A stretch of DNA of 64,000 bases from Fragilariopsis cylindrus CCMP1102 (taxonomy: Eukaryota; Bacillariophyta; Bacillariophyceae; Bacillariales; Bacillariaceae). How positions within the stretch are numbered: position 1 is the first letter of the stretch; each line of letters starts with the position of its first letter. Under the pieces are notes generated by a model. It had not been told where the DNA came from. It made no database searches and saw only the letters and a list, made by a program, of their open reading frames with translations. The position numbers and the translations under genes are program-made. Positions 2-41,977 of the stretch are shown here, piece by piece. Where the stretch lies: NCBI GenBank assembly GCA_900095095.1, contig FMBT01000012.1:62001-126000 (forward strand), written 5' to 3'.

Positions 2-885
2 TGCAGTAGTAGTCAAAACGGGGAGGTAGTAGTAGTACCATTTGCATTCCGTCGATTTTTCTCGAATTCTCAATCTTCAGAACGTCTCACCGAAATAGGT
101 TGTAGGGTCAACAACAAGTTGGCTCAAACAAAAAATAATGACGACGAACATAATAAGGCGATGAATAATAGTAAGGTAAAGGAGTGGTCGAATAATAATG
201 TACCAGCATTCATCGTCGCACTTGTTCACAACAATCAAAGAGCTACAAATGAGAAGGAGGAGGAGGAGTTAAACGACAATGATCCCTTCGAAGCGATGGA
301 ATATTCTCCGCCTGAAACCGAACAAAATCTTGAAGACGTAAGTTCCTTGTCTACCACTATCCACGATTACTACATCTATACTGTTGGGAGATTAGTGATA
401 GTGACATAAGATTGTAGATGTCACTGCGTATGAATACATGAATGAATCATGAAATCACAACTAATAAGAGCATACTTAACTGAATATTCACACCGTCAAT
501 TTCTTGTGCTATCCTTCCTCTCTTTACTTTCTTCTTCTTTCTTTCAGTACGCGACCACTTGTGCTGCTGTACAAAATGTGATTACTTCTCTTCACACGGA
601 TGGATTTTGCACTACTATGGTAAGGACGTAATTTTTTCTTTGTAAATGAAATAAATGTTATATTATTCACAACACCTCAAACTTTTTCTCTTAATTATCC
701 CTCGCACATTATGGTAGTGTGCAGCGGAACCCATCATTAAAACATCCGCTTTTCGAAAATTAGTGAAGGCTGACTCTACCGACAGAATAGTCGCACTCAT
801 AATGGTAAACGAAACGATAAATAATCAACCTAAAGAAGAGGAAATTGGATCTACAACGAGAGATCTTTTGATAGATCTACCGTAA
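2..885 (+). CDS. 3' part of an unknown protein-coding gene, three exons
   Basis: I do not recognise the product. The frame is open from base 2, so the gene probably starts left of the window. Exon a runs to 337 and ends at a GTAAGT donor. Exon b is 548-619, entered after a pyrimidine-rich TTTCAG and left at GTAAGG. Exon c is 718-885 and ends with TAA. All junctions are phase 0 and keep one frame, which is the main support. The protein is hydrophilic: an acidic Asn/Glu-rich first part, then a Cys-containing short segment (ATTCAAVQNV), then a Lys/Glu-rich tail ending in DLLIDLP. No domain or targeting signal is visible. Alternatives are a different last donor or a non-coding transcript. Confidence 0.5.
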
Positions 886-1009
886 ATATTCATATTCAGT
901 AGTAACACGAAGTCAGTATATAACACAATTAAAAAATATTTCTATATGAAGTTTCCTGTGAATGCGTTCTATATTTACTGAAAAAGTAGTCCCCCTCCCC
1001 CTCTCTCTC

Positions 1010-2650
1010 TCATTGTCCTTTCGTTTTGTCCATTAGCGGGATGCCAACATGATGCAAAACTTTATCTCGATAATTATCGTTTTCCGCCATGTCTTTGAGG
1101 ACATTCCATGCTTGTCGAAAATCAACATCGTCATCGGTTCGTTGTAACAAGATAGCAGCATCTATCGATGGCAAGGGTAAAGGACGATCGTCTCCTGAGG
1201 CATCGTACTGTGACGTATCGTAAGGTTGTCCCTCAATTAGTTCAGGAAGATTTCCTTCCTTAAACAAATCCATAAATGATCTATCTATCGCATTCTTAAG
1301 TTGAAAAACCCATCGTCCATAAATGGGTATACCAAAACGAAAGCCTAAAGCTTTGCCATCACCACAAGCTAACAACTTTAGAAAGTCACCCTGTGGTACA
1401 TATGCCTTTAAGAAGGAAGCGTTTTTGTCTACTGCTCCGCCAATTTTGTGATCGTTATTGCTGCTACTCAAAAAGCGAGTGAGATTTTCAATAAGAATTG
1501 GACCAGCTCGTACTGCATACACTCCCGCCTTTGGTGGTGACGAGCGACTACCCGGAATCTCCATAGTACAACAATCTCCCGCAGCAAAGACATACTCATG
1601 GCTTATACTCTGAAAATATTCGTTCACTTTAATCCAACCAGCTTTAGAAACAGCCAGTCCATTTGTTTGGAGCGACGACGACAATGTATGACTTCTCGCA
1701 CCCGTCGCCCAAAGACAATGCGTAAATTCAATACTTTCACCTGATTCTAATTTCAAAGAATTTTGATCTACACGATCAACCTTCGCATTGTTAACGATAC
1801 ATATACCGCGTTCATCCATTCGGTGAATTAATGCTTCTCGATTGACTGGTGTTTCATCTGGAAATAGTCCGTCATACGAATTGAGCAGTGTAACTTTGAT
1901 ATTTTCTTCTCCCACGATGGGTTTCCATCGTCCTACTATACTCATGGACAATTCAATACCAGCGGCTCCTCCTCCTACAACAATAACATTCACGGGTCGT
2001 TTATAGGAATTTTCTTCTAATGCAATTGTCGCTAACTCTACACGTCGAACCAATTCGGAAATTGGTCTCGTTGGTAGACAGAATTTTTTTGCACCAGGTA
2101 TATCAATCAGACCACGACTTGTAGAACCGATATCTATCGATATGGCGTCAAATGATATTCGTTGTTTTCCTGCTGTTATCACAATTTTATTATCAATATC
2201 AATGTCTATCACGCGATCTCGAATAAACTGAATTCCGGACCACGAAGCTAGCGGCTGTAACTCAATAAGAGTTTCTTCGGGTGAATAAATACCACTTAAT
2301 AATGAAGGAACCATACCAGAATAACATGGATGATCAGTTAAGTCAATTAGTATAACATCTAAATTCTGTGGTCTACTAGCATGATTGAGTCCCTTGATAA
2401 CTTGTACGTGTGCATGTCCTCCTCCTATTAGAACAAGTGTTTTCTTCGTTTCCTTAGAAGAATTCGAAATAGAAGGATCAACGGTAGACTTTGATACCAT
2501 CGTCATGGCGGTTGTGCTGATTATTCTTGTCTTGGTGGTAGAAAATGCAGATGTACATGCAATTAACATGAAAGCTAATTGAAACAGTAGGGTGCAAGAA
2601 CAATGTCGATTGTTGTGCTTGCGAATCACTCCGGCGATATAGAACATCAA
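1010..2650 (-). CDS. Plastid-targeted FAD/NAD(P)-linked oxidoreductase of the SelD-N-terminal type
   Basis: This 546-residue single-exon protein is a flavin oxidoreductase of the NDH-2-like family whose closest relatives, as I recall, are fused N-terminal to selenide-water dikinase (TIGR03169 type). The first Rossmann motif LIGGGHAHV lies near residue 73, the NAD(P) motif VVVGGGAAGIELS near 225, and the FAD-closing motif YVFAAGDC near 355. PCYSGMVPSLLSG after the first motif is typical of that subfamily. The C-terminus carries GRWVFQLKNAIDRSFM, resembling NDH-2 ends. Residues 1-50 read as a signal peptide ending TSA/F followed by a Ser/Thr-rich, basic stretch, a bipartite plastid presequence. 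No SelD domain follows, so it is a stand-alone version. The electron acceptor cannot be told from sequence. Confidence 0.85.
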   Translation of the reverse strand: MMFYIAGVIRKHNNRHCSCTLLFQLAFMLIACTSAFSTTKTRIISTTAMTMVSKSTVDPSISNSSKETKKTLVLIGGGHAHVQVIKGLNHASRPQNLDVILIDLTDHPCYSGMVPSLLSGIYSPEETLIELQPLASWSGIQFIRDRVIDIDIDNKIVITAGKQRISFDAISIDIGSTSRGLIDIPGAKKFCLPTRPISELVRRVELATIALEENSYKRPVNVIVVGGGAAGIELSMSIVGRWKPIVGEENIKVTLLNSYDGLFPDETPVNREALIHRMDERGICIVNNAKVDRVDQNSLKLESGESIEFTHCLWATGARSHTLSSSLQTNGLAVSKAGWIKVNEYFQSISHEYVFAAGDCCTMEIPGSRSSPPKAGVYAVRAGPILIENLTRFLSSSNNDHKIGGAVDKNASFLKAYVPQGDFLKLLACGDGKALGFRFGIPIYGRWVFQLKNAIDRSFMDLFKEGNLPELIEGQPYDTSQYDASGDDRPLPLPSIDAAILLQRTDDDVDFRQAWNVLKDMAENDNYRDKVLHHVGIPLMDKTKGQ

Positions 2651-3240
2651 GAATCGATAAAGTATGAGAAGAAGGTCAACTAAATGGTCTTCGCTGACTT
2701 AATTGGAGTTTTAATGCGAATATAATGAGATGGTACTGTACATATTAACAATTCTCAGTGTGTGTCGTGTTTAATCGAATTTCAGAAATTCATCGTAATC
2801 CCGAGCCCATCATCAATTCAATTACACGTCATCAACGCACACACAGCGTCAAATCGAATTTCAAATAGAAGCTAATTAAGTCGTCAAAGTCACAGGGCCC
2901 TTGCGACGAGCGAAAAAAAAAAAAAAAAACATACTACAACAAAATGAAAAAGGCGTCACGAAAGTTTCAGCGTGGTGGAAATGATATTTATACCTAGATT
3001 AATCCGCCACTTGTAGTCGACGCATTAGTACAGCGAACGCCCGCAAACGGTTTTCTATTTCCCATGGCAGGTTTTTTCAATCTCTCAATATACAATTCAA
3101 TTGCTTCATTGGTGTTTCTATATATTTCTTTATATATTAAAGTAACAGTAATTTCTCATCTTACATCGTTCCTATATTATATATTATACAATATATTACT
3201 GTTGTTCTATGCAACGACAAGAAAGAAAAATTAATAGCTA
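2651..3240. other. Intergenic, putative promoter of the FAD oxidoreductase
   Basis: No gene is seen. It holds an A17-type homopolymer near 2920 and an AT-rich TATATTATA stretch near 3120-3195. It ends where base composition and codon style change into the bacterial-like segment. Confidence 0.5.
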
Positions 3241-3270
3241 TAAAGAGTAATCGGAAGTGACCCCTACACT

Positions 3271-3358
3271 AGCGCAAGCGTCACGCTTATGCCAACAAAC
3301 AAAGGCATTGCAAACGAGCGACAACAAAAACACACCGCTAGTGCAGGCGTCCCGCTTT
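3271..3358 (+). repeat. Pair of bacterial-type intergenic repeats
   Basis: Two ~20-nt GC-rich words, differing at about four positions, sit at 3271-3290 and 3339-3358 just upstream of the GNAT gene. Nothing similar was noticed elsewhere in the window. They look like Bacteroidetes REP-type elements by memory; this is not tested. Confidence 0.45.
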
Positions 3359-3415
3359 AGCCCACAAACACAATATAAGCAAAAAAAAACCTCCAATAAA
3401 AATATCATCCTGCTA

Positions 3416-3937
3416 ATGAACTACCACTTTAGACAAGCCATACCATCCGAAACCCCTCAAATTTGGATCATTTTACAGCAGGCAATCGCACGTAGAAAGG
3501 CAGACGGTAGCGCGCAATGGCAAGACGGTTATCCAAGTCCGGATGTAATACAAAATGACATAAACAAAAACGCAGGATTTGTATTGACCGAAGGAGATAT
3601 CATCATTGGTTATAGTGCTGTATTAATAAACGACGAGCCCGCTTACGAAACCATAAAAGGAAACTGGCTTACAAAAGGTGATTTTGTTGTTTTTCATCGC
3701 GTAGCTATTTCAGAAAAACATTTAGGAAAAGGCTTAGCCAAAAAACTAATGAACTTCATAAAAGATTTTGCAATAAGCAACAACATTTACAGCGTCAAAG
3801 CAGATACAAATTTTGATAACTTTGCTATGATAGCTGTTTTCGAAAAATTAGATTACAGCTATTGTGGCGAGGTGCATCTTAGAGGAAGCGCCAGAAAAGC
3901 ATTCGAAAAAGTAATCGTTAAAAACGAACTCCTATAA
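3416..3937 (+). CDS. GNAT-family N-acetyltransferase, bacterial type
   Basis: A 173-residue GNAT enzyme, which transfers acetyl from acetyl-CoA to an unknown amine. The start is taken at the ATG giving MNYHFRQAIPSE, which opens the usual beta1 strand; the frame is open further upstream but runs through the repeat pair. The acetyl-CoA loop is FHRVAISEKHLGKGLAKKLMNF (GxGLA form of Q/RxxGxG/A) around residues 95-116, followed by SVKADTNFDNFAMIAVFEKLDY, a typical GNAT C-terminal half. The sequence RKADGSAQWQDGYPSPD near the N-terminus is what Flavobacteriia proteins of this group show, from memory. No intron, no organelle presequence. Whether the diatom expresses it is unknown. Confidence 0.8.
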   Translation: MNYHFRQAIPSETPQIWIILQQAIARRKADGSAQWQDGYPSPDVIQNDINKNAGFVLTEGDIIIGYSAVLINDEPAYETIKGNWLTKGDFVVFHRVAISEKHLGKGLAKKLMNFIKDFAISNNIYSVKADTNFDNFAMIAVFEKLDYSYCGEVHLRGSARKAFEKVIVKNELL

Positions 3938-4006
3938 ATACAAGTTGATAGCCTGAATTAGTGTTCATTTGCAGAATAAAAATGATCAAACCCTTTTTCG
4001 AAACCC

Positions 4007-4327
4007 ATGGAAAAAATATTTCTATACGTTTTCATTCTCCTATATTTTACCCAGTGTGGTTCTGTCAAAAAACACAATGCACATTTAACGGCTCTAATAC
4101 CCATAGATGAGTTTAAAATGGATATTGATTTTACATATAAAAAACTAAAAAAATTACATCCTCAACTCTATTGGTACATTAGTAAATCCGATTTAGATTC
4201 TAAATTCGACAGTCTGAAATCAACTATTAGAGAACCCATTACTCCGCTGGAATTTTATAAAAAACTGAGTCCAGTTGTAGCCGCCGTAAGGCAAGGCCAT
4301 AGCTACCTCTATCCTATTTCAACGTAA
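4007..4327 (+). pseudogene. Truncated N-terminus of a bacterial S41-type lipoprotein peptidase
   Basis: The 106 codons begin with a lipoprotein-like leader (hydrophobic core ending FTQC/G) and continue with IDEFKMDIDFTYKKLKKLHPQLYWYISK and KKLSPVVAAVRQGHSYLYP. That pattern is the N-terminal helical region of Bacteroidetes S41 peptidases, which usually run 450 residues or more. A stop comes directly after SYLYPIST and none of the protease domain follows, so only a non-functional fragment is present. It follows the GNAT gene on the same strand by 69 nt. The right border of the foreign segment is therefore probably within a few tens of bases of the stop. Confidence 0.6.
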
Positions 4328-4551
4328 ATGACGAAAAAAAGGCAATCAGCGAACCATCTTAATAAAGTATTGTATCTCCTTCTTATATCCCATATGGTAG
4401 ATTATTCATTCCATGGGTGGAAGTGCTTGTGACATGGGATTCGCAAATGAAGTTTCTGTTTCTGCTTCTTCTTCGACATACTGAATAATTCACTTTCGCG
4501 TTTAATTTAAGCCAGTATCATGTATAGTAATCGTACCTAATACTACCCCCG

Positions 4552-6164
4552 TCATTGTCCTCTATCGCTCCAATGTGTGATACACTCAGCAAATACTTCC
4601 GGGTTTTCTGTTGCTGATTCCCAAAATGCATCGCAGAGACGTTGTGATGTCTCCTTCCACTTTTTATGAGCCGTTACGTACATAATGGCTGGTACTCCAA
4701 CGGTAACAGCGGCGTAACATGCTAATCCTGGTATAGCCATGGGATGTAAACTCAACCAGCTTACAGATTGCGTTGTAGTCATACCAAACCAGCCCCATAT
4801 TCCGGCAGCTGGAACAGTTACATTGGCGGTCGTACCAGCTGCTGTCGCTGCTATCGTCGCAGTTGATTTCACTTGGCTTCGGAGTAATATTGTTGATGAA
4901 TTAATTTATTGTTGGGGATGGATTTTGGTCGTTTAACGTTAGTCCTCATTTGGTTATTAGCTTCTATTAGCTTATTAGCGAATGACAGAAAAGAACAAAG
5001 TACGAGTACTCAAGAAACTTACCCCGCCGCTGTCAGCTCCAGAAAAGAGCTTTGTTTATCATATATAAGACAACGCAAGTTTGTGCAGTTTTGTTTTGGT
5101 GAGATCCCACATAAGTACGACGTAGCGAAAACAATCGAACCAACGCATAAAAAATAAAACAGAACAAAACAAACAAATTAAACATAACAATCTTAGTATA
5201 ATATAATATAATATAATATAATATAATATATAGTATAATAAGGCCCCATACATACCTTGCTTGTAGGGTGGACCATTTCCCGGTCTTACACCAAAAGGCC
5301 ACGCATTCGCAGTTTGCATGTACCACATGGTAGTCGGGGAGCAGTTCAGGATGTTGCATGATAAAACTGACTCTTGCCAATACCATACCCACTGGATCAG
5401 ATTTGAAATTGGTAGCTGTACCGGACCGATAGACCTGACATTTCCACCAGGAAGCTTGGTATTGTACCTTGTGCCATTTATCAGTATCGGTATATACACT
5501 TAATATTCCTTCTTGTTCGAGACTTAATAATGACGACGACGACCGATGGTGATGATATTGTCTTCTCTGTATTATTTTTTCGTCTTGTTGTTGCTGTTGC
5601 TGCCGTAATAAAGGATTATCTACTAGTACCGTTTTTCTATTCTGTTGATGATTTTATTCGTGTAGATTCTTCTATTGATTGCTTGGAATCTTGATGTTGG
5701 ATCGTTTGTTGTTTTTGTTGCTTCTTCTGGTTTTTAGTTTCTACGTTGGAGAAATCTGCAATTGTTAATCGGACCGGTTTCCCTTCTTCATCATCGATGA
5801 TATCCATAACAATTCCATGATGTTGGAAAGCATAAGGAAGTCCGCATAAACTTCTCCATTGATATACATGATCACCAACTTGAAGCTCTTCGCTTTCTAA
5901 TTCGGGTATCACCTCTGGTGCTAGTGCTGCCACCGTTACATCTGTACAGTAAGTAGTGTCAGGAATCGTCATGGGAACATCTTGGAGTGATTCTATTGAT
6001 TGATCGACCAGTAAATTGATGTCGTTGTTACTTGATTTTCTATTTGTGTTGGCATTGTCATTGTTTTTGATGCTATTATTATTATTATTATTATTATTAT
6101 CACAAATGAATTGACATGTCAGTTCGGCTCCTGGCATTTCTCTACAATCGGAAGAGTAAGGCAT
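4552..6164 (-). CDS. LRAT/NC-domain protein, four exons with a 27-nt microexon
   Basis: Proposed exons are 6164-5745, 5599-5256, 5049-5023 and 4876-4552; phases agree and give 371 codons. Exon 1 carries a poly-Asn tract and the first LRAT block, GDHVYQWRSLCGLPYAFQHHGIVMD, with the catalytic His. Exon 2 has a Gln/His/Ser-rich linker, then SWWKCQVYRSGTATN and the Cys block HANCECVAFWCKTGKW (nucleophile Cys of NCE). Exon 3 encodes SSFLELTAAG; exon 4 continues QVKSTATIAATAAG and ends with two hydrophobic segments and an amphipathic tail. LRAT/NC-domain proteins are thiol acyltransferases or phospholipases; the substrate here is unknown. The exon 1/2 splice sites are the least certain; an (ATATA)n tract lies in intron 2. 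Confidence 0.75.
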
Positions 6165-6575
6165 CTTCGGTAATGTATGATATTGAGTTTGTACGGTGTA
6201 AAGATTTAGCTTGTTTGGTTAGTTGATTCATTGTTTCCCTTCTCAGTTCAGTTTGATGTTCCAACCGTTCCATCATAATTGTTATGTGTTTATTTTTTGT
6301 TCATGTCTTCAGTTCGATTTGAATTTTCTCTGCTTTCTGAATCGTGCATAGGAATCGTTCCCGCGGGACAGATTATTTTTTTGAGCCAAATAAAATATTC
6401 ATAAGAATGAAAAATCAATCAATCCGATAATCTGAAATTCGACGATCTATCTCGCAATCACATCTCTTTTTATGTACAGTACTTGAAATAGACACGGGTA
6501 CATTGTAACGTAGCTATTGCTGTTCCGCTGCTAAAGGATAATAATCGATAATAAGCAAACGAAGAAGAAATAACA
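6165..6575. other. Bidirectional intergenic region
   Basis: It separates the divergent LRAT-domain and hydrolase genes and must hold both promoters. No RNA gene or repeat is seen. Confidence 0.5.
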
Positions 6576-7517
6576 ATGTCGGTATCTAGTATTCCATTCT
6601 CTAATTATGGTGTTCTAACTGGTCAATTGTTTCTCTACGCTGGTGGTAGAGCGGCGTTTGAATCTCCATCGCCACCAATAAGCTCGACAGAGAAACTGTC
6701 AGAGAAAAAATTAATACTTTTAGGTGGATTATCTGATGGATTACTTCCTTGTCCGTATACCGATATGTTAGAAAAAGCATGTCAGGATCAATCATGGTCC
6801 TTAGTTCAGCCTATCATATCAAGTTCCTATACTGGTTTTGGGAATGGATCATTGGAACGTGACTGTAATGAACTTCAAGAACTTATGAGGTATTTAATAG
6901 AATTTCGAAATGGAAAAGAATTCGCAATCGTCGGTCATTCTACTGGTTGTCAAGATGCAGTGTATTTCTTAGAAAATGTAGAAAGTTCCTTAGTTTCAAG
7001 ATTAAAAATGGTGGCACTACAGGCACCTGTTTCGGACCGAGAAGGAGCAATGCAACAAGAAGGTTACACTGAGAATATTGCTTCTGCGGAGAAAATGGTA
7101 CAGGACGGGAAGGGACAAGAAATGGTACCTCGATCGTATTTTTGGGCACCAATAACAGCAAAACGATTTGTAGATTTATTTTCTATAGGTGGAGTCGATG
7201 ATTACTTTTCAAGTGATTATACAGACGATGAATTAGCTCAACGGCTCCAACACGTAGGAACGCATCCTAATTTACATACAGCACTTGTTGCATTTTCTGG
7301 ATCAGATGAATATATTCCTTCTCATGTTGATAGAAAATTACTTTCGAAAAGACTGGTTGATGCTATGAACACCTTGTGTATCAAAGACGGTAACAATAGT
7401 AAAAATGTAGCAGAATTGCTCTACCTCGAATCTGGTAATCATAACCTTTCGAAAGGACCTACAGATGCAAAAATATTTGTCGATCGTATATCCGAAATTT
7501 TAAACCAAATCAATTAA
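6576..7517 (+). CDS. Alpha/beta hydrolase of the DUF1749 (UPF0613/SidJ-like) family
   Basis: An intact 313-residue single-exon protein. The family includes fungal siderophore esterase-like proteins and plant/algal homologues of unknown substrate. ILLGGLSDGLLPCPY marks the first core strand and oxyanion region. The nucleophile elbow is GHSTGCQD near residue 121. The acid is the Asp of FSGSDEYIP near 244 and the His is in SGNHNLSK near 291, so the triad is complete. No signal peptide or membrane segment, so a cytosolic location is likely. ATG is the first in frame. The natural substrate is not predictable here. Confidence 0.8.
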   Translation: MSVSSIPFSNYGVLTGQLFLYAGGRAAFESPSPPISSTEKLSEKKLILLGGLSDGLLPCPYTDMLEKACQDQSWSLVQPIISSSYTGFGNGSLERDCNELQELMRYLIEFRNGKEFAIVGHSTGCQDAVYFLENVESSLVSRLKMVALQAPVSDREGAMQQEGYTENIASAEKMVQDGKGQEMVPRSYFWAPITAKRFVDLFSIGGVDDYFSSDYTDDELAQRLQHVGTHPNLHTALVAFSGSDEYIPSHVDRKLLSKRLVDAMNTLCIKDGNNSKNVAELLYLESGNHNLSKGPTDAKIFVDRISEILNQIN

Positions 7518-8300: not shown

Positions 8301-10381
8301 TCAGCTTGTTCGTGTTCCAATTTTAGATGTGTCTGTATCCTTAAAGGCGACGACGTATGATCTAGTTTCGGGAAAACCGATTTTATACTCGTCATACTCA
8401 AATGATTCAACAAAACCAAGATCTTTCAATTCTTGAGCAAAACCAGTTTGAAGATGTTTACGAGTTGGTGTTATACTTCTCTTTGTCATTGATTCAACTA
8501 CCTTCGTAGATCCAGCAATATTCACGGAGACAACTCCATTATATGATAGTGTATTGTATAATTTGTCGAGGATTGATTGGCGATTTGACATCATCTCAAT
8601 CGCGAATTCTTCTTCCATATCACTGTAATATACGGTTGAATATTAGGAAGATGACAATAATATTTCGGTTAGGTTTCGTGGACTTAAGAATGTGCATAAT
8701 ATGATCGAAAATAATACTCTATCCAAAACAAAAAACAAACAGAACTGATTTTTTACTTACAACAAATCAATCAACGCCACGTCGAAGGGTGTACCGTCAT
8801 AGTTCGAAATCCATTCCGAAGGAGTTTGATCATAAACAAAGTTCACACGACGATCGTCAAAGCAACTACTAATAATATCCTTTTTGCCGTTTGTGTATGA
8901 ACAATCGTTCCATTCGGAAAGATGTTTTCGTGCAAATTCTGTCATATCCTTATCGGCCCCAACAACAGTCACATGTTCAACACCCTTGTGTTTTAGGACT
9001 TCACGAGTTGAAGCTCCTAACCCGGCTCCAAAAATAAGAACACGTTTCGGATCGTCGTGTGAAATCATTGGAGGATGGACGAAACTTTCATGAGCGGCCG
9101 CTTGTCCAAAGGAATTACTTTTCAACACACCATCTAAATAGAATTGTTTGCTAATAGAAGGAAGATTTTGTTCTTGCATCTCATAAACTCGTGCTATTTT
9201 TCCCGTGCTAGTCTCCATGGATGCAATCTATATATTATACAGTAAGGAGAGAAAATCAGAAATATTGTAACGTGAGAATAAGGAGAGATAAGTGGATCGC
9301 ATAACGTCTAACGCATAACAAGGAAATTTGAGGTGGTTGTATACATTCCAAGGTAGAAGAACACACAATGCAGTACAGCATATCTTTGTTTATATATGAT
9401 TATATTTCGTACCTCCTTCTTATAATCCATACCGAGGAGTCCTAATGGGTATGCAAATGTATCACGTCCACCAACAGAAGACGATTGTTCATTGAAACCA
9501 CGTCTCTTGTATGCCCAAATAACGGCAGGATCGACATTCTCATCACGTGGAATAATAAAAAGATTTTCAATTAATACCATTGAATCTAATAATGATGTGG
9601 AACCACACGTGAATAAATCTAATGTAATAACACCCTCTGCTGGCCATGTATGGAATGCAACATGACTTTCTAATAGCACACCTGCACAACTAACACCCTC
9701 TGGGTATAATCCATGACAATGATAGGAAAGTAGTGTTAGGCCACTATTATCGACTAATGAAATCATTGCAGTAGCAAGTCGTGCCTCTGAATTTAAGAAA
9801 GATGAATCAAGACCATCAATATCTACCAATAAATGTTGTCCAGCAGGTAGATGTTGTTCTTCATCCATATCGTATTGTGCTTCGTTGTCATTGTTTTCAT
9901 CAAAACTTAATTTTCCATTCAGTGGATCAGGAACATTAATGTTGTCGTTTGTGGGTGAGGCATTGGGACTACTACCGTCTTCATGATTATTACTATTATT
10001 ATTGTTGTTGTTTTCTTCTTCTTGGTCTTCGTCAGCTGGTTGTAACCATTGTGATGCAATCACTGCGGATAAACGAGTATCAAAATTCTTCGTTGTGTAG
10101 ATAGTATTAGGAATAATCTTCCCAATTTGTGCCTTTGGAGTTGGAAGTAATCCACTACCGCCACCACCACCACCATCTTTTCCTCTTTGTGAGGATTGTA
10201 ATTTGGACTGTATTTGTTGTAATTTGGAAATTTCTATTGCGTTATTATCGAAATCAGGAATGAGATAGAATCGTGTTATCCTTCCTATAGTAAAAGTAAC
10301 GAAACTACATGATAGTAGACATGTTATTAGAAACCGTAATGATACAGTAGCTTTTTGCTGATGCTTGATGTTGTTCGCCAT
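8301..10381 (-). CDS. Membrane-anchored AdoMet decarboxylase-aminopropyltransferase fusion
   Basis: Exons are 10381-9413, 9227-8761 and 8622-8301, phases 0 and 2, giving about 586 residues. Residues 15-40 form one hydrophobic anchor, then a Gln/Asn/Gly-rich acidic linker. The AdoMet decarboxylase is the bacterial type: GVSCAGVLLESHVAFHTWPAEG holds the E/S self-cleavage site that makes the pyruvoyl group, and LDLFTCGS holds the conserved Cys. The second half is a spermidine-synthase fold: HPPMISHDDPKRVLIFGAGLGAS then FDVALIDLFD with the Asp pair. The acidic residue of the usual GGGD/EGG loop is replaced (GAGLGAS). Bacterially derived fusions of this kind are known from diatoms and are proposed to serve long-chain polyamine synthesis for silica. 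That role here is inference. Confidence 0.85.
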
Positions 10382-11237
10382 GGTGGTTGTATTATTTTCT
10401 GGTACGTTATTTTGAACTGAGTTTTGATTGTTCTGTTTTCAAGTTAGATATAATTTCGAGATGTGAATTCTTGATGTGAATTGATTTCTATCTACAGTAG
10501 TAGTTGTCACTGACGTGCACACCGGTTCAGATTAAGTACATCAAACAAGAAGTAGATACAAGAGAAGTGCATCTAAAGAAAGCACGATCGATTACTTACT
10601 ACGTAAATGTTGTAGGTCGATACTACAGTACATGCCGCGTGCATTCAATATTGTGAGGATAATTATGCACGTGCTATTTGATCCCCTTCCTCGTTTTATC
10701 GGCGTTGAGAATAACAAGCGAAAAAAATCGTACTTGAAAAATGAATGTAACGCTTCTTGTTATGGACGTATTTGTTTAAATGGCAGCGTGACGAGCTGAA
10801 AAAAATCATACACATACAAACCTTTACTTTTTTTAATTCCAATTCGCATTGCTCACACAAAAGGCGCTAGAGAAACTAAAGAATGTCGATCTGCTAAATA
10901 AAAAGATCTACAATCGCTGCAATATCCAAAATTGTTGTTGTTGTAATAAGGGTAATATATGTTGACTAACTGGTGGAGGGGGGGGGGGGGGGGGGGGGGG
11001 TTGTGCGATTTTTTATTTCGTATTAAAATTTTTATCCATCATCCTCGAATCGAATGAATCGAATCTTTAATCAATCAATCAATCAATCAGTCAATCAAAA
11101 AAAATCTTCATTGTCGTTGCTTCCTTCGCGAATTCCACTTGTAAAACACAAAACAAAAACAAAACAAAGAAAAACAAAAAAAAAACGAAGAAACAAACAT
11201 ATCACATATTTTTCAATTAGAGAGAATTAATTCAATC
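10382..11237. other. Intergenic with poly-G and AATC repeats
   Basis: No gene seen. A G run of about 24 lies at 10977-11000 and an (AATC)n tract near 11070-11098, followed by CAAAA-rich sequence just before the cysteine synthase start. Promoters for both flanking divergent genes should be here. Confidence 0.5.
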
Positions 11238-12826
11238 ATGAGCCTTCTACTTCAAACTACCTCCCGTTGCTTTGGCAGACGGGGCATCCGACATGCTGTG
11301 CGATCTTCTGTTAGTGGTTCAGTTGCAAGTACGAGCAGTAGAGGATTCGCTGGATATGCAGAAAATGTCTGCGATCTAATTGGTCACACGCCTATGGTAA
11401 AACTCAATCGAGTCGTCCCTGAAAATAGTGTTGCTGCGAAAGTTTTACTGAAATTAGAGATGCAGAATCCGGGAGGATCCATCAAAGACCGTATCGCACT
11501 AAGTATGATTCAAGAAGCGGAGAAAAGGGGTGAAATTACGCCAGGGAAAACGACCATCGTAGAAGCTACATCGGGAAATACAGGTACGGGTATCCAACAT
11601 TATAATGAATTCAAAAATACGCTATCATAAATAGACGTCGCTCACGATTTTCAATGCTGTCGTTTCGTTTTCTCTACTATAATAGGAATTGGCCTCGCGA
11701 TGGTAGCTGCTGCACGAGGATATAAATGTATCATCGTCATGCCGCAAGTACCGGCGATGTATGAGCGATATCTCATCGATAGGAAGTTTGGTGCCGAGGT
11801 CCACCTAACGAGTGTAAATCAAAATGATATGGAAAAGACATTTGAAAACTTAGTCGGATATGCAGAGGATCTTGTTGCTGCAAATCCTGATACGCATTGG
11901 ATGCCATCTCAATTTATTAATCTTGACAATCCAAAGAGTCATTACGAACAAACAGGTCCAGAAATTTGGGAACAAACTGGAAAGAATTGTGATATCTTCG
12001 TCGCAGGAGCAGGAACAGGCGGGACACTTGCAGGAGCAGGAAAATACATATTTGAACAAAACCCCGAAGCACAAATCGTTTGTGTTGAACCAACCGAAGC
12101 GTGAGTTACAATGGTCCTTTTTGTTTTTGTTCTCTTTTTTATCGTACGATAATTGAGTTTTCATTATTATTATTTTTAAATTTGTTTTGCTCATCGATAA
12201 AACCTTAAAAACGCTTCTTCGTCACACAATTATACTACAGAAATGTACTAAGCGGAGGCCATGCATCCATCCATGGCGTTGTCGGGATTGGCGCAAATAT
12301 CAAACTTCCTTTGCTAGAAGAGCTTGCTCCAGGGCAACCATGGCAAGCGGGTCCGAGGGGATTTATCTCAGAATTTTGTTCGGCTCTTACACCTGAAGCC
12401 GTTGCTTGGGCCAACCGTCTTGCAAGTGAGGAGTAAGTTCTGCTACCAGTATTATTTATTGATTATCGTGTCTATACATACATACCTATTCTTTTCGTTA
12501 CAGAACGAACAACTTTCTATCACATCTCTAATTCTTTTACCTTTCGAACAAAACATTTGTTACCAAAAATTAACAGAGGACTTTTAGTTGGTCCTACATC
12601 AGGGGCGGTTGTTAAGGTATGCTGTGACATTGCGTGCCGACCTGAGTCTGAAGGCAAAACAATCGTTGGTATCGTTGCTAGTTCTGGAATTCGATATGTC
12701 AAGCACCCTATGTGGGAAGCACAGCGTACAGAAGCAGATTCAGCGCTACCCATACCTCCAGATATCGAAAACGAATTCCCAATTCTTCGCTGGAAGTCTG
12801 AAGACTACGTTCGACCTGAAAAATAA
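11238..12826 (+). CDS. Cysteine synthase (O-acetylserine thiol-lyase), mitochondrial type
   Basis: Exons 11238-11583, 11686-12100, 12241-12432 and 12577-12826 (phases 1, 2, 2) give 400 residues. It makes cysteine and acetate from O-acetylserine and sulfide with [12 protein letters not shown] near residue 78 holds the PLP lysine (usual form SVKDR). TSGNTGIGLA binds the substrate carboxylate and [10 protein letters not shown] the PLP phosphate; [16 protein letters not shown] and LLVGPTSGA complete the fold. Residues 1-40 are Arg/Ser-rich without acids and lack a signal peptide, so a mitochondrial presequence fits better than a plastid one. A cystathionine beta-synthase assignment is less likely because the protein is short and has no CBS pair. 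Confidence 0.9.
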
Positions 12827-13470: not shown

Positions 13471-15223
13471 ATGAAGTTTTTCCAAGGGAAGAAGGCTGAC
13501 CTGAGCAACGGCTATACATGTACTGCTAGTATGGATAATACAAGCACTTTAAGTTATTGGAGACGGTACTCTGTGCTCGCGCTGGTCCTACTTGCATTAT
13601 CTTCTCCTGTCAATTACGGTCATGCATTTGTCGCACCTTACCAACCTATACTAAATGGCGGTACTTGTAAAACGACAACAAGGCAAATGGCAAATATACA
13701 ACAATTCAACAATAACGAAAGAGAAACAAAGGATGATGTATCGAGGACAGTAGTGAGAGTGGTCAGCAAAAACGACGACAACGACAACAAAATCATAAAA
13801 AACCAACAAACAAATAACAATATGGTGACTCGCATAACCACCATAGGTAGTCTAGCTCTTGCAATGAGTTTGTGTTTTTGTCCATCCCCACCAGCAGCAC
13901 ATGCATCTGGATACACCTCCCTAACGCCGGAACAAAAGATGGCAGCGGAAGCATGGAGGACGGTCGATTCAACTTTCTTAGATCGTACCTTTAACGGACA
14001 AGATTGGTTTAAGTTACGACAAAACCTTGTTAAAGCAAAGTACGAATCTATGGAAGATGCACAAGATTCCGTAACGAATATGATGTCAAAATTAGGAGAT
14101 AAATATACAAAGTATTTACCACCAGCTAAGTACCAGTCATTAGTTGATACCGCCACAGGAACACTTGCCGGTGTAGGAGTTGAAATTGCAACAAATTCGG
14201 ATCTCATACCATGTGTATCGGACGTTGAACCGAACAGTCCCGCTATGAAGGCAGGACTTCTACCAAAAGATGTCTTTCTGGAAGGTGATGGTGCTAAATT
14301 CGATAAAACCTCTACGCCTGTCGATGTTGCACTACGATTAAGAGGTCCGGTTGGCAGTAAGGTAGGGGTGACAGTACTACGAGACGGAACTAAAATTGAT
14401 TTTATCATCGAAAGACAGACCATTAAAGTCGAAAGCGTCCGAAGTTACATTGCAAAAGAGAATAAACAGGTAGGTGTAATTCGGATTAAATCATTTTCGG
14501 GAACAACAACTTCTTCCGTTAAGGATGCTGTTTTAGAATTGAAGAAAAAGGGTGCCACATCGATTCTCTTTGATCTGAGGAGTAATCCTGGTGGATTACT
14601 CCCAGGAGGAACCGAAACAGCATCGTTGTTCCTCGAAGCAAATAAACCTACTTTGTTTGTTGTAAGTAACAAAGGTGTTATTGATGCACAAGAAACATTT
14701 GTAGATGGTTTCGATACAGAAACGAATTTAGTGATACTTGTGGATCATAATACCGCTTCAGCGGCAGAAGTCTTTACTGCGGCATTGAAGGAGAATGGAA
14801 GAGCGAAGGTTGTTGGGGAACAGGTAAGTGGTATTCTTTAAAAGAGAGAGAGAGAGAGAGAGATGCGAGAGTCATCAACAAACAATGAGGATGTCATTGT
14901 GGCATTTTACCAATATAAGTAATATCACACAACTAACGATTGTTTATCTTTCGTTACCGTCTTTTTCTTCCTTTACTTCTTTTTCTGTGCGGCGTGTGCA
15001 CATATCATAATCTACTCTTGTTATAAAGACGTTCGGAAAGGGTATTATACAAACAATTCGAGAATTGTCCGAAAACAACGGCGGCGTAGCTGTCACTGTA
15101 GCTCGTTATGAAACTCCAAAACATAATGACATCAATAAGTCTGGTATTGCGGTAGACACGTCAACAGATGTTGAATGTCCTAAGGATGATGCGCTAGCAT
15201 GTCTACCATCCGATTTGCTATGA
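13471..15223 (+). CDS. ctpA: Plastid C-terminal processing protease (CtpA, S41)
   Basis: Exons 13471-14823 and 15029-15223 (phase 0) give 515 residues. This serine protease matures the D1 protein of photosystem II in the thylakoid lumen. A signal anchor ends GHA/FVAPYQP, an ASAF-like plastid motif, and a second hydrophobic stretch LALAMSLCFCPSPPAAHA is a lumen signal ending AHA. A PDZ domain follows (LAGVGVEIATNSD, near 235). The catalytic core shows FDLRSNPGGLLPGG, the Ser of NTASAAEVF and, across the intron, the Lys of GEQTFGKG. The second exon matters because it supplies that lysine. Length is usual for algal CtpA with its double presequence. Confidence 0.9.
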
Positions 15224-24121: not shown

Positions 24122-25810
24122 TAATTCTTGGTTGAGGGGGGATGCTGATGTTTGATTTTGTTCTATTTAGGATTCTGTGAATGTATATTATGTATATTAA
24201 TTTTGTCACCACAAATATCTCAGTAGAAACGATCGTGGGAGAATATATTATTTTTCAAAGGGAGCAAACAACACACGTGGGAATCAACTGTCAACAATAG
24301 TACCGAAAGAATGTATTGTAACTTGGTTAGAGGCTCTAATCTATAATTTATAACTGTGATAATAACTGCGAAACTTTATGACATAGTCACATCTAATCTC
24401 TCTCTCTCTCTATGTATATATATATACATATATATTACGCTGATTCAAATGTTATCAATTCGTTCCATGGGAACTTTTGGGATGCTCTTTGAGATGTATC
24501 GCCACCATATATAATATGTTGATCCACTACTTCTATTGCTGGATCGAATATTTTTTTAGACAGTCACGAAGCACAACAATAGTAAATTGTCTTAAATTTG
24601 CACCAGTTGTATTAATAACCCTAATCAAAGAGCAACAATGTAGTCGTAACTTCTTTGTTTGTCAATCTATTGGAATTGGTAACTTCTGCACTGTACTCAA
24701 CTGTGACAGAACAAATAAACCATAGATTATATTCTTCATTCTTCATAGTAGTACATGATTGTTTGTGGACCACATAATTTGTGGCAAGGGTGGGGGCTTG
24801 CTGCTGCAAACATCATGTGTGATTTAGTTGATTAAGATAGCTGTATGGATTTAACTTAAAGCAGGTTGACTGGTAGAAAATCTATACCTAGGAAGGAGCT
24901 GTCATCGTAATGCTAATGTTTACCATCATATCTGTATAATTTTTTTATAAATTGTGGAAAGAAAGAAGTGTGCGTAAGAAACTAAATTAAAACAAGTTAA
25001 TGTATTAACAGCTTCCAGGCTATTGCTCCATATATTTAATCGGACCTAGCACTCGCGGAATCTTAACATTTTGAAAACTCATAGCACGAGCTATCGTGAG
25101 AGCAAAGAGGTATCAATTGGGGCACTCTTTACCGGCAATTCAGACAGAAAATACTGGCAAACTACAGGAACCAGATGCTAAACAATAACATTTGGAAACT
25201 TTTGATACTTGCAGTTTGCTGGAAATCCCATCCGTATTGCAGGTACAGAGTGCCTCAAAACACACTCGAATGAATAAAAATAGCACTTTTCATTACAACG
25301 CGTATGCGTATTACAACATGTTACTTGTACTTTCCTTTCGAACACTACTTACATGTATAATAATATCTACATTTCGTCTCTTAAGTTTGTAATGAATGGA
25401 CCTATATTGATCGATATACAGTTAATTGAGTTCCCATTGTCATATCAACGGAATGAATTCTTCTTTTGATATATTCTAATGCACATGAAAAAAATCCTAA
25501 CGTCTAGCGCTTATCATACGATGACATCATCAAATATTTCATGGCTTTGATTGACCTCATCAATATACTTAGCTACATTTTCCTTTACGTGCTTTTTGAT
25601 GACGTCTTTGCGTATTGAATTACGGTTGAGGACGTACAAGAGTGTCTGATTTCGCGTCTAAGGTTGATAATAAGTTCTTTAAATATCTCGACTATTTATA
25701 CGCCCCGAAATAAAAAAGAATTCACTTACTACTATTGGTTACATCATTATTATTATTATTTACTGCTGGGACAGGGTCTCCTTTTTCGCTGCCATTGACA
25801 CCTTAATAAC
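24122..25810. other. Non-coding AT-rich interval
   Basis: No gene recognised. A (CT)n/(TA)n tract lies at about 24398-24434. Short frames have no family likeness or splice support. Confidence 0.45.
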
Positions 25811-35181: not shown

Positions 35182-36228
35182 GATAGCTCTTTTTTTTCTT
35201 TCTTCGATTTCGTCGTTTATATCATTTGCTTGTTCCAACAGAATATTGCCAAACCAAATACGGGACTTTGATGAAAATTACCGCAGTGTTTTACTATTCA
35301 CCATCGTCCGTATTTCTTTGTAAATTTCGTTGCGCCACCGATTAGTAGAATCGAAATAAGGCCAAACTCTCTTGATCTTGCAACACTGTGTGTAATATCC
35401 TTGTTCATCCAACTCTAACTCCATATCTATTACTACTTCCTCCAGTCAACGGAAATTGCCGCGCGGCTATCACGTGAAAATTAACAAGCGCTAAAGCACA
35501 CTATCATACAAAAACTAAATAATGCCCAAAAAATAAATAGCAAATACTAGTAAATTTAATTTAAAACTATACATCCTTCAACTGTGTGTAACTCTATCAA
35601 TAAAGAATATCTTTCAAAATTTGAAGGTTCCATCTAAACTACTATTCTACACATATTTCATATATCAACATCCAAAGTTCTACCCTGGCATCTTCCTGCT
35701 GAAATAGGCAACCTGATAGACTAAATTAGTGTGTGAAATGCACTTAAAAAAATCAAGATTGACAGTTGAACGTGTTAATAACGCGTGCTAATTTTTCACG
35801 TGATAGCCCGCGCGGCAATTTCCGTTGACTGGAGGAAGTAGTACTGTAGAGACAAGTCAGTAGATGATAGCTAACTAACTAAAAGTAGATCTTCGACGCG
35901 CAAAAAACATCACATTTCGATTTCTTAGTCGAATGAGTCAATTGAACGTCTGTTCGCGTGATTGGAGATATTATGGTTCAAATAAGAGCTCTTAGCACCA
36001 CTCATCCAAACTGCCTTTTCAACGGAATACAGAAAAGTCCCTCCACAACAAGCAGTCGTCATCTCTCCGTACAATTTGTTCCGTAACGGTATTGTGTATT
36101 GAATAAAGAAGTACTAGTAGTATTACTGTACCTCTAGCCAACAGCATCTAGACAGAACAATAGCAATAGATCAAATAAAGAATACTAACAAACAATAGTA
36201 ATCAGAATCGTAATCAGAATTATTCATC
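35182..36228. other. Divergent intergenic region containing the MITE
   Basis: Outside the MITE there is only AT-rich promoter-like sequence for the Iml1 homologue (left) and RLP24 (right). Confidence 0.5.
35431..35843. mobile_element. MITE with ~55-bp terminal inverted repeats
   Basis: The left end TACTACTTCCTCCAGTCAAC, running on through GGAAATTGCCGCGCGG and CTATCACGTGAAAA, reappears inverted at the right end (about 35789-35843) with one extra G and otherwise near identity over ~52 bases. The 413-bp element has an AT-rich, non-coding core. If the inverted repeat proper begins at CTTCC, the flanks give a TA duplication, as for Tc1/mariner-type MITEs; this is ambiguous because the outer bases TACTA/TAGTA are themselves complementary. 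It lies between the Iml1 and RLP24 promoters. Near-perfect termini suggest recent insertion. Confidence 0.8.
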
Positions 36229-38811: not shown

Positions 38812-39403
38812 TTCCCTCTATTAATAATTCAACGATGGCGTTGTTACGACACAATTATTTATTTGTTAAATTACTGTAGTTCGATAAGTACATAAATAAT
38901 GAGAATAGAGCCTCTATCGCTATTAAAAGTGGCACAAAAATAAACCGTTAGTAAAATACTAAGTACGCGGGGCTTCTTGCGCGAAGAGCGTGCGTTAAAT
39001 AAAATTATGTGCTTATTGGATCATTCATTCATCATTCGCTTTTAAATTACGAGTATTTTCTTTCATACAAACTTAACATGGTGTAAGACATGAGAGATTT
39101 ATCCAATAGGGTTCCTATTCGAGGACGTGGGTACTCGTTGGTATCACAAGCTTGTGGCCCTCTTTCCTGCTATATGTACGCACTTGTCGTCGTCGTCCGA
39201 CAACCAAGAAAAAATCAAAATAAGACAAACCAAAATTATTCGAACCAAAATTATAATATTATTATTTCATTCAAAGACTGCTTTACAATTATTCAATACT
39301 CCTCGAATGGATTTCAATATTGAAAGAACGGAAAGAAAAGCACCGGATATCGAGGAATTTTTTTTACTACAACTACGTAATAGCGGTTTCCAATGGTCGA
39401 AAA
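38812..39403. other. Intergenic
   Basis: Sirtuin promoter side. Plus-strand frames at 39090-39480 are not supported. CGCGAAGAGCGTGCG near 38980 is a GC-rich patch. Confidence 0.45.
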
Positions 39404-40345
39404 TTATTTCGGGTCGAAATGAGTCGAAATTTTCGACTGTGCCTTTGCAACAGACGATGGATGCTGACGGAAATATATGAGAGACCAATCATTGTTCTCG
39501 CTGTCGTACCCGATTCGTTTGAATTGCACAGCCTTGAACCCAGATCGAAGCTCTTTCCTTGCTTCATCAATGATTTTATCAACAATTTTCTTGTAGAATA
39601 ATTTGGCGATGGAGTCCGAAGTGTAGCATGGCACAATTGGGTGGTCCCCGGGAAAGTTTTCCTCTACAACCCTAGCATTCACAAAGCGCTTTTGCCTCAA
39701 AGAGTTTTCAGAGTTTCCAACTTTGACCCAGAACAAATTAGGAACATCCCCCTTTTTGGTTGGTGGGCATTTTTCAATTAATGTATCGATCAGCATAAAT
39801 CGCATTTGGTTCAATGCGACTTCCCCACCTTTGATGCCTGTGAGTTTTTCCTTGTGAGATTCGTAATCTTTTCGTGTGGCAATCTTTTCAGGATCGGTTG
39901 GTGTACATTTTTCAAACAATTTATCAATCAACCGTTTGCTGGATGCTTCTGTTGTGGTTTTGGCATTTGCGAGTGCTTCCAGGTAAGATCTGAAATCTTC
40001 ATCGTTTTCAATTCCTAGTCCCAGGTTTTGTGTTGTGATGTATTTTCTGAAATTAGCGAACCTTTCGCCAACCGTGACGCTTCATAAATATCGACCAATT
40101 CACACACCAAATTTCCTGTGTCATCTTTATTCTTAAACGTCACAAATTCGTAGTCTTGGTCTTTCAAACATGTGACAACCTCTCTGTTTTGAATCTGTCT
40201 CTCCTTGCTGCCGAACTGAAAATCGCATCTTCGAATCGACTGAGACTGTACAACATCCATCAGTTTCAACATAGGCCCTGATTTCAAATACTTAGCAGTG
40301 CCTTTACCAACGACGATGTGCCATTGTAGATTCTTCTGGTCCGGG
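39404..40345 (-). pseudogene. Decayed gene for an unrecognised protein
   Basis: Two long minus-strand stretches, about 40345-40080 and 40090-39404, read as one protein in different frames and have no initiator ATG at a sensible place. Recognisable blocks are WHIVVGKGTAKYLKSGP, IQNREVVTCLKDQDYEFVTF, then FRKYITTQNLGLGI, LALNQ-like GGEVALNQMRFMLIDTLIEKC and FKAVQFKRIGYDSENNDWSLIYF. No domain is recognised. The amino-acid composition is protein-like and unlike the low-complexity neighbours, so this is likely a former gene or an exon set of a broken one. Its origin, host or element, is not decided. Confidence 0.4.
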
Positions 40346-41112
40346 TTCTAGTCGTGTATCTACCCATGCGTTCCGAAACAAAAACACCGTATAGAATAAA
40401 GAAAGAGAGAATAATATCAAAAGAAGGGAACAAAATAATAATAATAGAAAGAAGCAACGGTTAGAACAGAATTTTATATCAATAGAATCAATAGATGCTC
40501 ATGAAAGCTCGCAACACCAAATAAAAATACAGCAACGGTCCGTTTAGCAAACAAGAGGAAGCAATCGAACGGAAAATAATCCCATTGTTGAATCCGAATT
40601 TAGCGTTGCATGAAGTAACGTTTAAAGAAAAAATAATAAATCGAAACGACGACAAAAACAACACGCCCATAAAATACAATCAAAACAAATGAAGCAGACC
40701 ACAGAAACATCTCCAGGGTGCTATTGAACCATGCCAATCAAAAGCACCATTGTCAGTACCATTCGGGTACAGAAAAGAAGGCAACAATCGGAAGGAAATT
40801 TCCAAAATAACGCGAACACGATTAAAACAACATCAATGACAACAACAACGACGACGGATGGCAAGAATGAATAATCAATCGAATTTGGTCAAAAGCAGGA
40901 CCAGAACACAAGAAAAAGTTATACAATCATTCAGTAATACAGTCAGCAACATACAGACAAAACAACACACCTTTAGATTGGAGGGAAGGCTTAGAATTGA
41001 GAAATACCATCATCAATTCCTATATTTTGCTTTTTTTATTTTTTTTGAATTGAAATTATGAGTAACGTATTTTGTTTGTTTTACATGAGAGAGCGTGTGA
41101 AATATTTCTTTT
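40346..41112. other. Non-coding interval upstream of the hydrolase
   Basis: A-rich sequence with short frames. The missing first exon of the hydrolase may be here but no convincing piece was found. Confidence 0.4.
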
Positions 41113-41977
41113 GTGCTTTTTCACGTACAAAAAAAAAACACTGAAACAACGAAAGAGGCAGCCGTCATAGATCCATCATTTGTAAATCCTACCGAATTCA
41201 AAGCGTTAAAAGATTTTTTGGAAAAAAAGAATGCTAATCTTACGCACGTATTATTGACACATGGTCATCCTGACCATATTATGGGCGTCGGCGAAATGAT
41301 GAATACATGGCCGGAAGCATCACTGCACCTACATCCAATGGAAGATGAAAACTATCGTCGTTCACGGGAAATGGGTTTTGAATTTGGGTTACGTTTACCA
41401 GACACACCTCTTCCGACGCCGACTCATGAATTACAGGAAGGTGGTGTCGTAAGAATCGGGGATAATATAGAACTTTCAGTGGTTCATACTCCAGGACATT
41501 CACCAGGACACGTTATTTTTATTGACCGACGAAGCTTTGAAGAACCGACAAAAGACGGCAATAATAATAATAACACGAATAATCACAATAAACACGTTGG
41601 TGTTATGATTTCAGGAGATTTACTCTTCCAAGGATCTGTCGGTCGAACAGATTTCCATAACTCCTCGTTAGATGATTTGTATGCAAGGTGAGTTCTCAAT
41701 TGAATTGAATTGAACCAGATTGAATTGAATAGACGGTATTTGGTCTTCTCTATTCATTTCTGAAATAAGAGTAAAATACTAACAAAAATCTCCATCTGTC
41801 ATATTCAGTATACGACGGCTCTACGACGTATTCGATGGTAAATCAATTGTCTTGTCGGGTCATACAACTCCAACGTATTTGAAAAAAGAAAGACTAAGTA
41901 ATCCCTTTGTGGACATGGCACTAAAAAGACCACAAAAGTGGTATGATGTGGTCAAAGAACGACACGGATGGCTCTAA
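41113..41977 (+). CDS. Metallo-beta-lactamase-fold hydrolase, glyoxalase II-like (5' end unresolved)
   Basis: Exons 41113-41687 and 41809-41977 (phase 2). The zinc motif THGHPDHIMGVG is the HxHxDH signature; later ligands are the His of VVHTPGHSPGHVIF, the Asp of ISGDLLFQGSVGRTDF, and the His of LSGHTTPTYL in exon 2. Family members hydrolyse hydroxyacyl-glutathione or related thioesters, or act as persulfide dioxygenases. The order and the GSVGRTDF motif fit a hydroxyacylglutathione-hydrolase-like enzyme. A poly-Asn insert (NNNNNTNNHN) sits before the Asp motif. The frame has no ATG at its start and runs through an A10 tract, so an upstream exon supplying the N-terminus is missing from the model. 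Confidence 0.82.

Follow-up and report, generated by a model that had tools for sequence, protein, structure and literature searches.

A second contig of the Fragilariopsis cylindrus CCMP1102 assembly (C90, 1.27 Mb) holds the locus described here without a 1,126-base insert of bacterial kinship, which lies between two host genes on contig C597. The insert contains an intact gene for a GNAT-family N-acetyltransferase and the truncated front part of an S41-peptidase gene, the latter with a stop codon. Very probably it represents a scrap of flavobacterium-like DNA that was end-joined into a nuclear break on one haplotype, a real insertion that would be neutral and has not been fixed. An initial annotation of the sequence had proposed either that a scrap of Bacteroidetes DNA was captured at a break or that the assembly is chimeric; new here are the presence of the insert in one of two assembled copies, its position in a divergent block and the stop in its second gene.

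The window, meaning the whole stretch of 64,000 bases that was analysed, corresponds to positions 62001-126000 of C597 (127,450 bases) in an assembly of 67.9 Mb and 818 contigs, and contains no Ns. Coordinates below are those of the window unless a contig is named. Open reading frames (ORFs) with Pfam matches such as Iml1, Sir2 and Ion_trans identify a eukaryotic host. The left neighbour of the insert, which we take to be NDH-2-like, points away from it, and the two right-hand ORFs (4555-4872 and 5640-6164) gave no Pfam match above the cut-off. Another host ORF (13471-14838), 9 kb from the bacterial S41 fragment, carries PDZ and Peptidase_S41 domains. The features of the locus are as follows.

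1013-2509, minus strand: left host gene, pyridine nucleotide-disulphide oxidoreductase (PF07992, E 3.8e-33).
3180-3214, plus strand: end of the left host sequence, its last four bases being GCAA (3211-3214); the alignment with C90 runs up to CACTAGGCAA at C90 position 287690.
3215-4340, plus strand: insert, 1126 bases, missing from C90; the G at 4341 can be assigned to either side.
3215-3258, plus strand: first 44 bases of the insert, either bacterial intergenic DNA or repair filler.
3268-3288, plus strand: intergenic repeat, copy 1, ACTAGCGCAAGCGTCACGCTT, near-identical to a bacterial locus (L080:1501-1521).
3337-3357, plus strand: intergenic repeat, copy 2, GCTAGTGCAGGCGTCCCGCTT, read in the sequence.
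3416-3937, plus strand: intact GNAT-family N-acetyltransferase gene, 173 aa (PF00583, E 3.9e-12).
4007-4340, plus strand: front part (~111 codons) of an S41-peptidase lipoprotein gene, which the right border cuts off; a TAA stands in frame at 4325-4327.
4342-4345, plus strand: second GCAA, where the host right flank begins by pairwise alignment; a single copy is present in C90.
4555-6164, minus strand: right host gene region with the two ORFs named above, one or two genes by the ORF list.

C90 lacks window positions 3215-4340 and is collinear on both sides of them, so that it provides an insert-free version of the same locus. It matches the left flank at 97.8% over 1,490 bases and the right flank at 94.7% over 113 and 96.4% over 1,382 bases. 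When the assembly was searched at the DNA level with window positions 3200-4380, the matches were the window itself and C90 just right of the insert; the right flank as sole query matched the same two places and, among the best candidates scored, no third. Pairwise alignment sets the borders at 3214/3215 and 4340/4341, and the limits of 3245-4345 given in the initial annotation are corrected to 3215-4340. The junction reads CTATTGCACTAGGCAATCATCG in C90, and in the window CTGTTGTTCTATGCAA ahead of the insert and GGCAATCAGCG behind it. Contig sequence and comparison with C90 together place the joins to host DNA on either side at one site, where no host bases were lost and where GCAA, single in C90, flanks the insert on both sides. 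About 110 bases to the right of the insert, at ~4449-4452, the window lacks ~52 bases that C90 has.

The acetyltransferase gene was rightly described as complete, and its product scores 46.9 bits against PF00583, with a curated cut-off of 20.7. A search of solved structures returned generic GNAT proteins only (three chains, best E 1.6e-22), which name no substrate, and NCBIfam gave no match above its cut-off and likewise no substrate. The protein differs at 2 of the 58 columns that are invariant in 17 relatives, the relatives themselves differing at 0 to 5 when each was left out in turn. The gene lies on the strand opposite to that of the left neighbour and the right-hand ORFs. Within its own assembly it has one strong match, and the second (E 0.085, 27%) is not significant; we rejected an old host gene on these grounds, which concern this assembly, and on the absence of the gene from the C90 copy of the locus, although other eukaryotes may hold it.

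The second gene had been called a truncated S41 lipoprotein gene, and comparison with its relatives bears out the truncation. The ORF 4007-4327 has no Pfam match of its own. Its alignments with bacterial proteins cover their residues 1 to ~103, with 55% as the best identity. At a threshold of E 1e-5, 73 of the 397 genomes sampled from one family contain such a match, and the 20 best relatives have open frames of 528-549 aa. Three of these were scanned and carry Peptidase_S41 (PF03572, E 1.7e-24 to 3.9e-25) within residues 285-503. The fragment, ending at codon ~111, corresponds to their front part and lacks the catalytic domain; it therefore counts as part of an S41 gene and not as a member of the S41 peptidases. 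The label of lipoprotein is suggested by the signal-plus-Cys start in the sequence and in the relatives. Beyond the TAA, bacterial homology continues in frame (ISTxMTKK against SKRFTKKE) to ~4339, stopping one or two bases before the right border, and the few residues that align further are probably due to chance. The TAA may have arisen in the host or may already have been present in the donor. The fragment differs at 3 of 26 invariant columns (0 to 3 in 20 relatives). The insert as a whole appears little decayed, since the GNAT frame is intact, departures from conserved columns are few and the S41 fragment has one stop.

The first 44 bases of the insert matched no other place in the assembly. 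The best among the local matches listed for them was an exact 14-mer (E 0.038), and nothing convincing points to a filler origin. Both copies of the intergenic repeat noted in the initial annotation are present, but calling them bacterial-type is thinly supported: of the 397 genomes searched in one family, a single one (G135, in the order of Flavobacterium) has the motif, at L080:1501-1521 and seemingly between genes.

The sequence of the insert is of bacterial origin, as judged by relatives of the GNAT and S41 proteins and by codon usage. A search of 84,980 bacterial and archaeal species, each represented by a single genome, with a method sensitive to close relatives only, gave two confirmed GNAT relatives, both Bacteroidota (an uncultured Bacteroidetes and a Flavobacterium, 67% each). 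Further genomes were drawn around a Flavobacterium (G002) at the level of order (395), family (397) and class (395), these draws being partly overlapping samples of larger groups. GNAT relatives at E 1e-30 occurred in 86 of the 395 genomes of the order (best 71%), and 50 of the 395 in the class-level draw matched either protein at E 1e-12 (best 71%); the best GNAT relative overall, at 71-72%, is in a Bacteroidia genome. GNAT relatives on plasmids are far more distant, at 25-35% identity in all 20 records and chiefly from Lactobacillales, as are those in phages, all seven below 60% and the best five of the seven at 25-34%. A tree of 56 rows, in which all the other rows are Bacteroidota so that it speaks to no other origin, gave the window protein an ordinary end branch of 0.24 (median 0.19) and no nearest group with good support. 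Codon usage scores +0.045 per codon for the GNAT gene and +0.053 for the S41 fragment. Both values fall in the bacterial range (5th percentile +0.009 in 258 bacterial ORFs, against -0.077 to -0.018 in 13 host ORFs), with tables trained on the same set that each is shown against and a bacterial set drawn partly from duplicate loci. The Bacteroidetes origin first proposed is thus upheld by the two confirmed relatives, the much lower plasmid and phage identities and the bacterial codon usage; of the codon argument, the A-ending codons cited earlier carry little weight by themselves (38% and 34%, against 33% in the host and bacterial sets).

No close donor was present in the order, family or class draws, and no GNAT relative exceeded 72%. 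Among the loci compared, DNA identity to the insert reached at most 75%, over 503 bases. The two genes were seen side by side in no bacterial genome sampled. Around 33 GNAT loci (L027-L059, including two duplicates) the sole S41 match was by chance (E 0.69), and around 20 S41 loci there was no GNAT match, the flanks being mostly 1.5 kb in both sets. A joint search of the family draw found GNAT at 47% identity or more in 6 of 397 genomes, none with a separate S41 match. The joint query gave one match over both proteins in G408 (50%, residues 1-225 of 279), which runs through six stops; a similar run-on from GNAT was seen in G066, where the next gene encodes another lipoprotein, and a few other matches ran past GNAT by some 10-15 residues. 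The donor is most likely a flavobacterium-like member of the Bacteroidota outside the draws.

From collinearity, 97-99.6% identity in blocks longer than 3 kb and the finding of two copies, we infer that C597 and C90 are alleles, representing two haplotypes; they may also be a duplicated segment or derive from two strains in the culture. Excluding positions 10001-12000 and the final 1,450 bases of C597, and taking positions 220001-360000 of C90 only, the two are collinear from C597:2900 to 124655, with ~105 kb aligned in 15 blocks. They differ in patches: when the alignment is divided into 416 bins of 250 bases, 314 of these show no difference. There are no mismatches in window positions 11-2750 and 6001-7500, and between them a divergent block at ~2750-6000 holds the insert (and the 52-base difference mentioned above). 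The two bins (up to 250 bases) to the left of the insert differ by 2.8% and 6.9%, ranking at 96% and 99.8% of the 416. Lying in such a block, the filled copy represents a sequence variant of its own. The long identical tracts may reflect a collapsed, unphased assembly.

Other stretches are also present on one contig only. Those in C597 and missing from C90 are at window positions 24397-25660 (1,264 bases), 35436-35838 (403 bases) and 39130-41141 (2,012 bases), and at C597:42267-51056 (8,790 bases); C90 alone has stretches of 9.6 kb (C90:246498-256130) and 15.8 kb (C90:330161-345978). Perhaps these are mobile elements; ORFs were listed in two of them. Structural differences are therefore frequent between the two contigs, and an insertion as such is not unusual here.

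In the explanation that we favour, a ~1.13-kb DNA fragment of a flavobacterium-like Bacteroidota would have met a double-strand break between genes in the host's nuclear DNA and would have been joined into it by end joining. Either a slightly staggered break with fill-in or a 4-base microhomology would give GCAA on both sides without host loss, although a match of four bases at a junction may also arise by chance. The filled copy would then be carried on one of the two haplotypes in the sequenced culture, and the insert is most likely neutral, with neither expression nor function. No special machinery need be invoked, since the insert comprises one complete gene and a portion of the following one, at least one of its ends falls inside a gene, and it has neither a transposase nor inverted repeats at its borders. 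For Agrobacterium, host break-repair pathways are described as crucial for the integration of transferred DNA, and conjugation-like pathways are named as the route by which E. coli delivers DNA to diatoms (both from extracts of PMC4958254).

Artefact was the other possibility raised at the outset, and of the alternatives it fares best, though we regard it as unlikely: DNA of a bacterium from the culture would have become part of the contig when the library was made or the reads were assembled. Flavobacteria are often carried in diatom cultures, and the filled contig is the shorter of the two (127 kb against 1.27 Mb). With RF00177 we found one full-length bacterial-type SSU rRNA (C419:3122-4636) and three partial matches on C596 and C108, scoring 5 of 500 candidates; bacterial contigs may therefore be present, which also counts towards an artefact, and the C419 gene may be a plastid remnant or a contaminant. 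A photosystem reaction-centre gene (Photo_RC) was not found in the assembly. TonB-plug domains (PF07715) are abundant in Bacteroidota; the assembly contains no match to them, while a Bacteroides ihuae control was positive, which speaks against large Bacteroidota contamination. Contamination by itself would not explain a filled and an empty copy. Two junctions would be needed at a single point beyond which the host sequence carries on in register, as the empty copy shows, and a bacterial fragment would have to be ligated between two host pieces that were already neighbours; the window, moreover, has no Ns. In C90 the host flanks are directly adjacent, and one site in both filled and empty form is not what a simple misjoin would produce; of the two options first proposed, this favours capture.

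We infer that the direction was insertion and not deletion, and that the mechanism was end joining. An older insert, once on both copies and lost from C90 by microhomology-mediated deletion between the GCAA copies, would result in the same sequences, and the S41 fragment does already contain a stop codon. That history needs two events against one, and its deletion must have run edge to edge although bacterial homology reaches approximately to the right border; we consider it very unlikely beside a single capture. It is also very improbable that the insert is a young functional acquisition, in which the predicted acetyltransferase would be expressed and benefit its carrier. The open frame and the conserved columns, kept about as in bacterial relatives, would fit such a role; an intact frame is equally expected of a recent insert, the gene's orientation is against that of its neighbours, and the bacterial-type repeats still lie upstream. 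Arrival on a mobile element, plasmid or virus, rather than as a random scrap, has hardly any probability either: the short flanking direct repeat does resemble that left by transposition, but Pfam identifies no transposase in either ORF, the inverted repeats listed include none at the borders, the insert DNA had no match in 72,556 plasmid records, the plasmid and phage GNATs are distant, and neither protein had a relative in IMG/VR in a scan for close relatives only. We accordingly rejected a virus, phage or plasmid carrier as without support from these searches.

Isolated bacterial fragments are often dismissed as contaminants. The occurrence of a filled and an empty version within one assembly serves as an internal control against this and fixes the exact borders, which bear on how foreign DNA enters a genome, and comparison of haplotigs suggests itself as a general filter for bacterial insertions. 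To our knowledge, the transfers into algae reported so far mostly concern genes that are old and fixed. A bolder reading, which we consider rather doubtful, is that the locus captures bacterium-to-eukaryote transfer at its very start, with a complete, still-bacterial acetyltransferase gene segregating beside an empty allele; if true, the fixation, decay or recruitment of a foreign gene could be watched directly in a microalgal population. Among the papers listed, titles and the opening lines of abstracts yielded no description of a haplotype-specific bacterial insert in a diatom, though one may exist.

The insert appears to belong to the bacterial integrants in eukaryotic nuclei, and its interest is that it seems to be still polymorphic. 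Nuclear pieces of organelle DNA (NUMT/NUPT) are likewise short and foreign, with clean ends and little or no loss of the target; they are organelle DNA captured at nuclear breaks, whereas the donor here would be an unrelated bacterium. Wolbachia inserts in animals, too, consist of bacterial DNA that lies in a eukaryotic chromosome and has no evident function. Such integrants have endosymbiont donors and are often large, as extracts of PMC4299567 describe them, whereas the present piece is ~1.1 kb and its Bacteroidota donor is presumed not to be an endosymbiont. The ice-binding proteins of sea-ice diatoms are likewise proposed to result from transfer into algae (extracts of PMC3342323), and are made by all sea-ice diatoms examined; in contrast to those genes, the insert described here is a fragment with a cut gene, present in one of two assembled copies.
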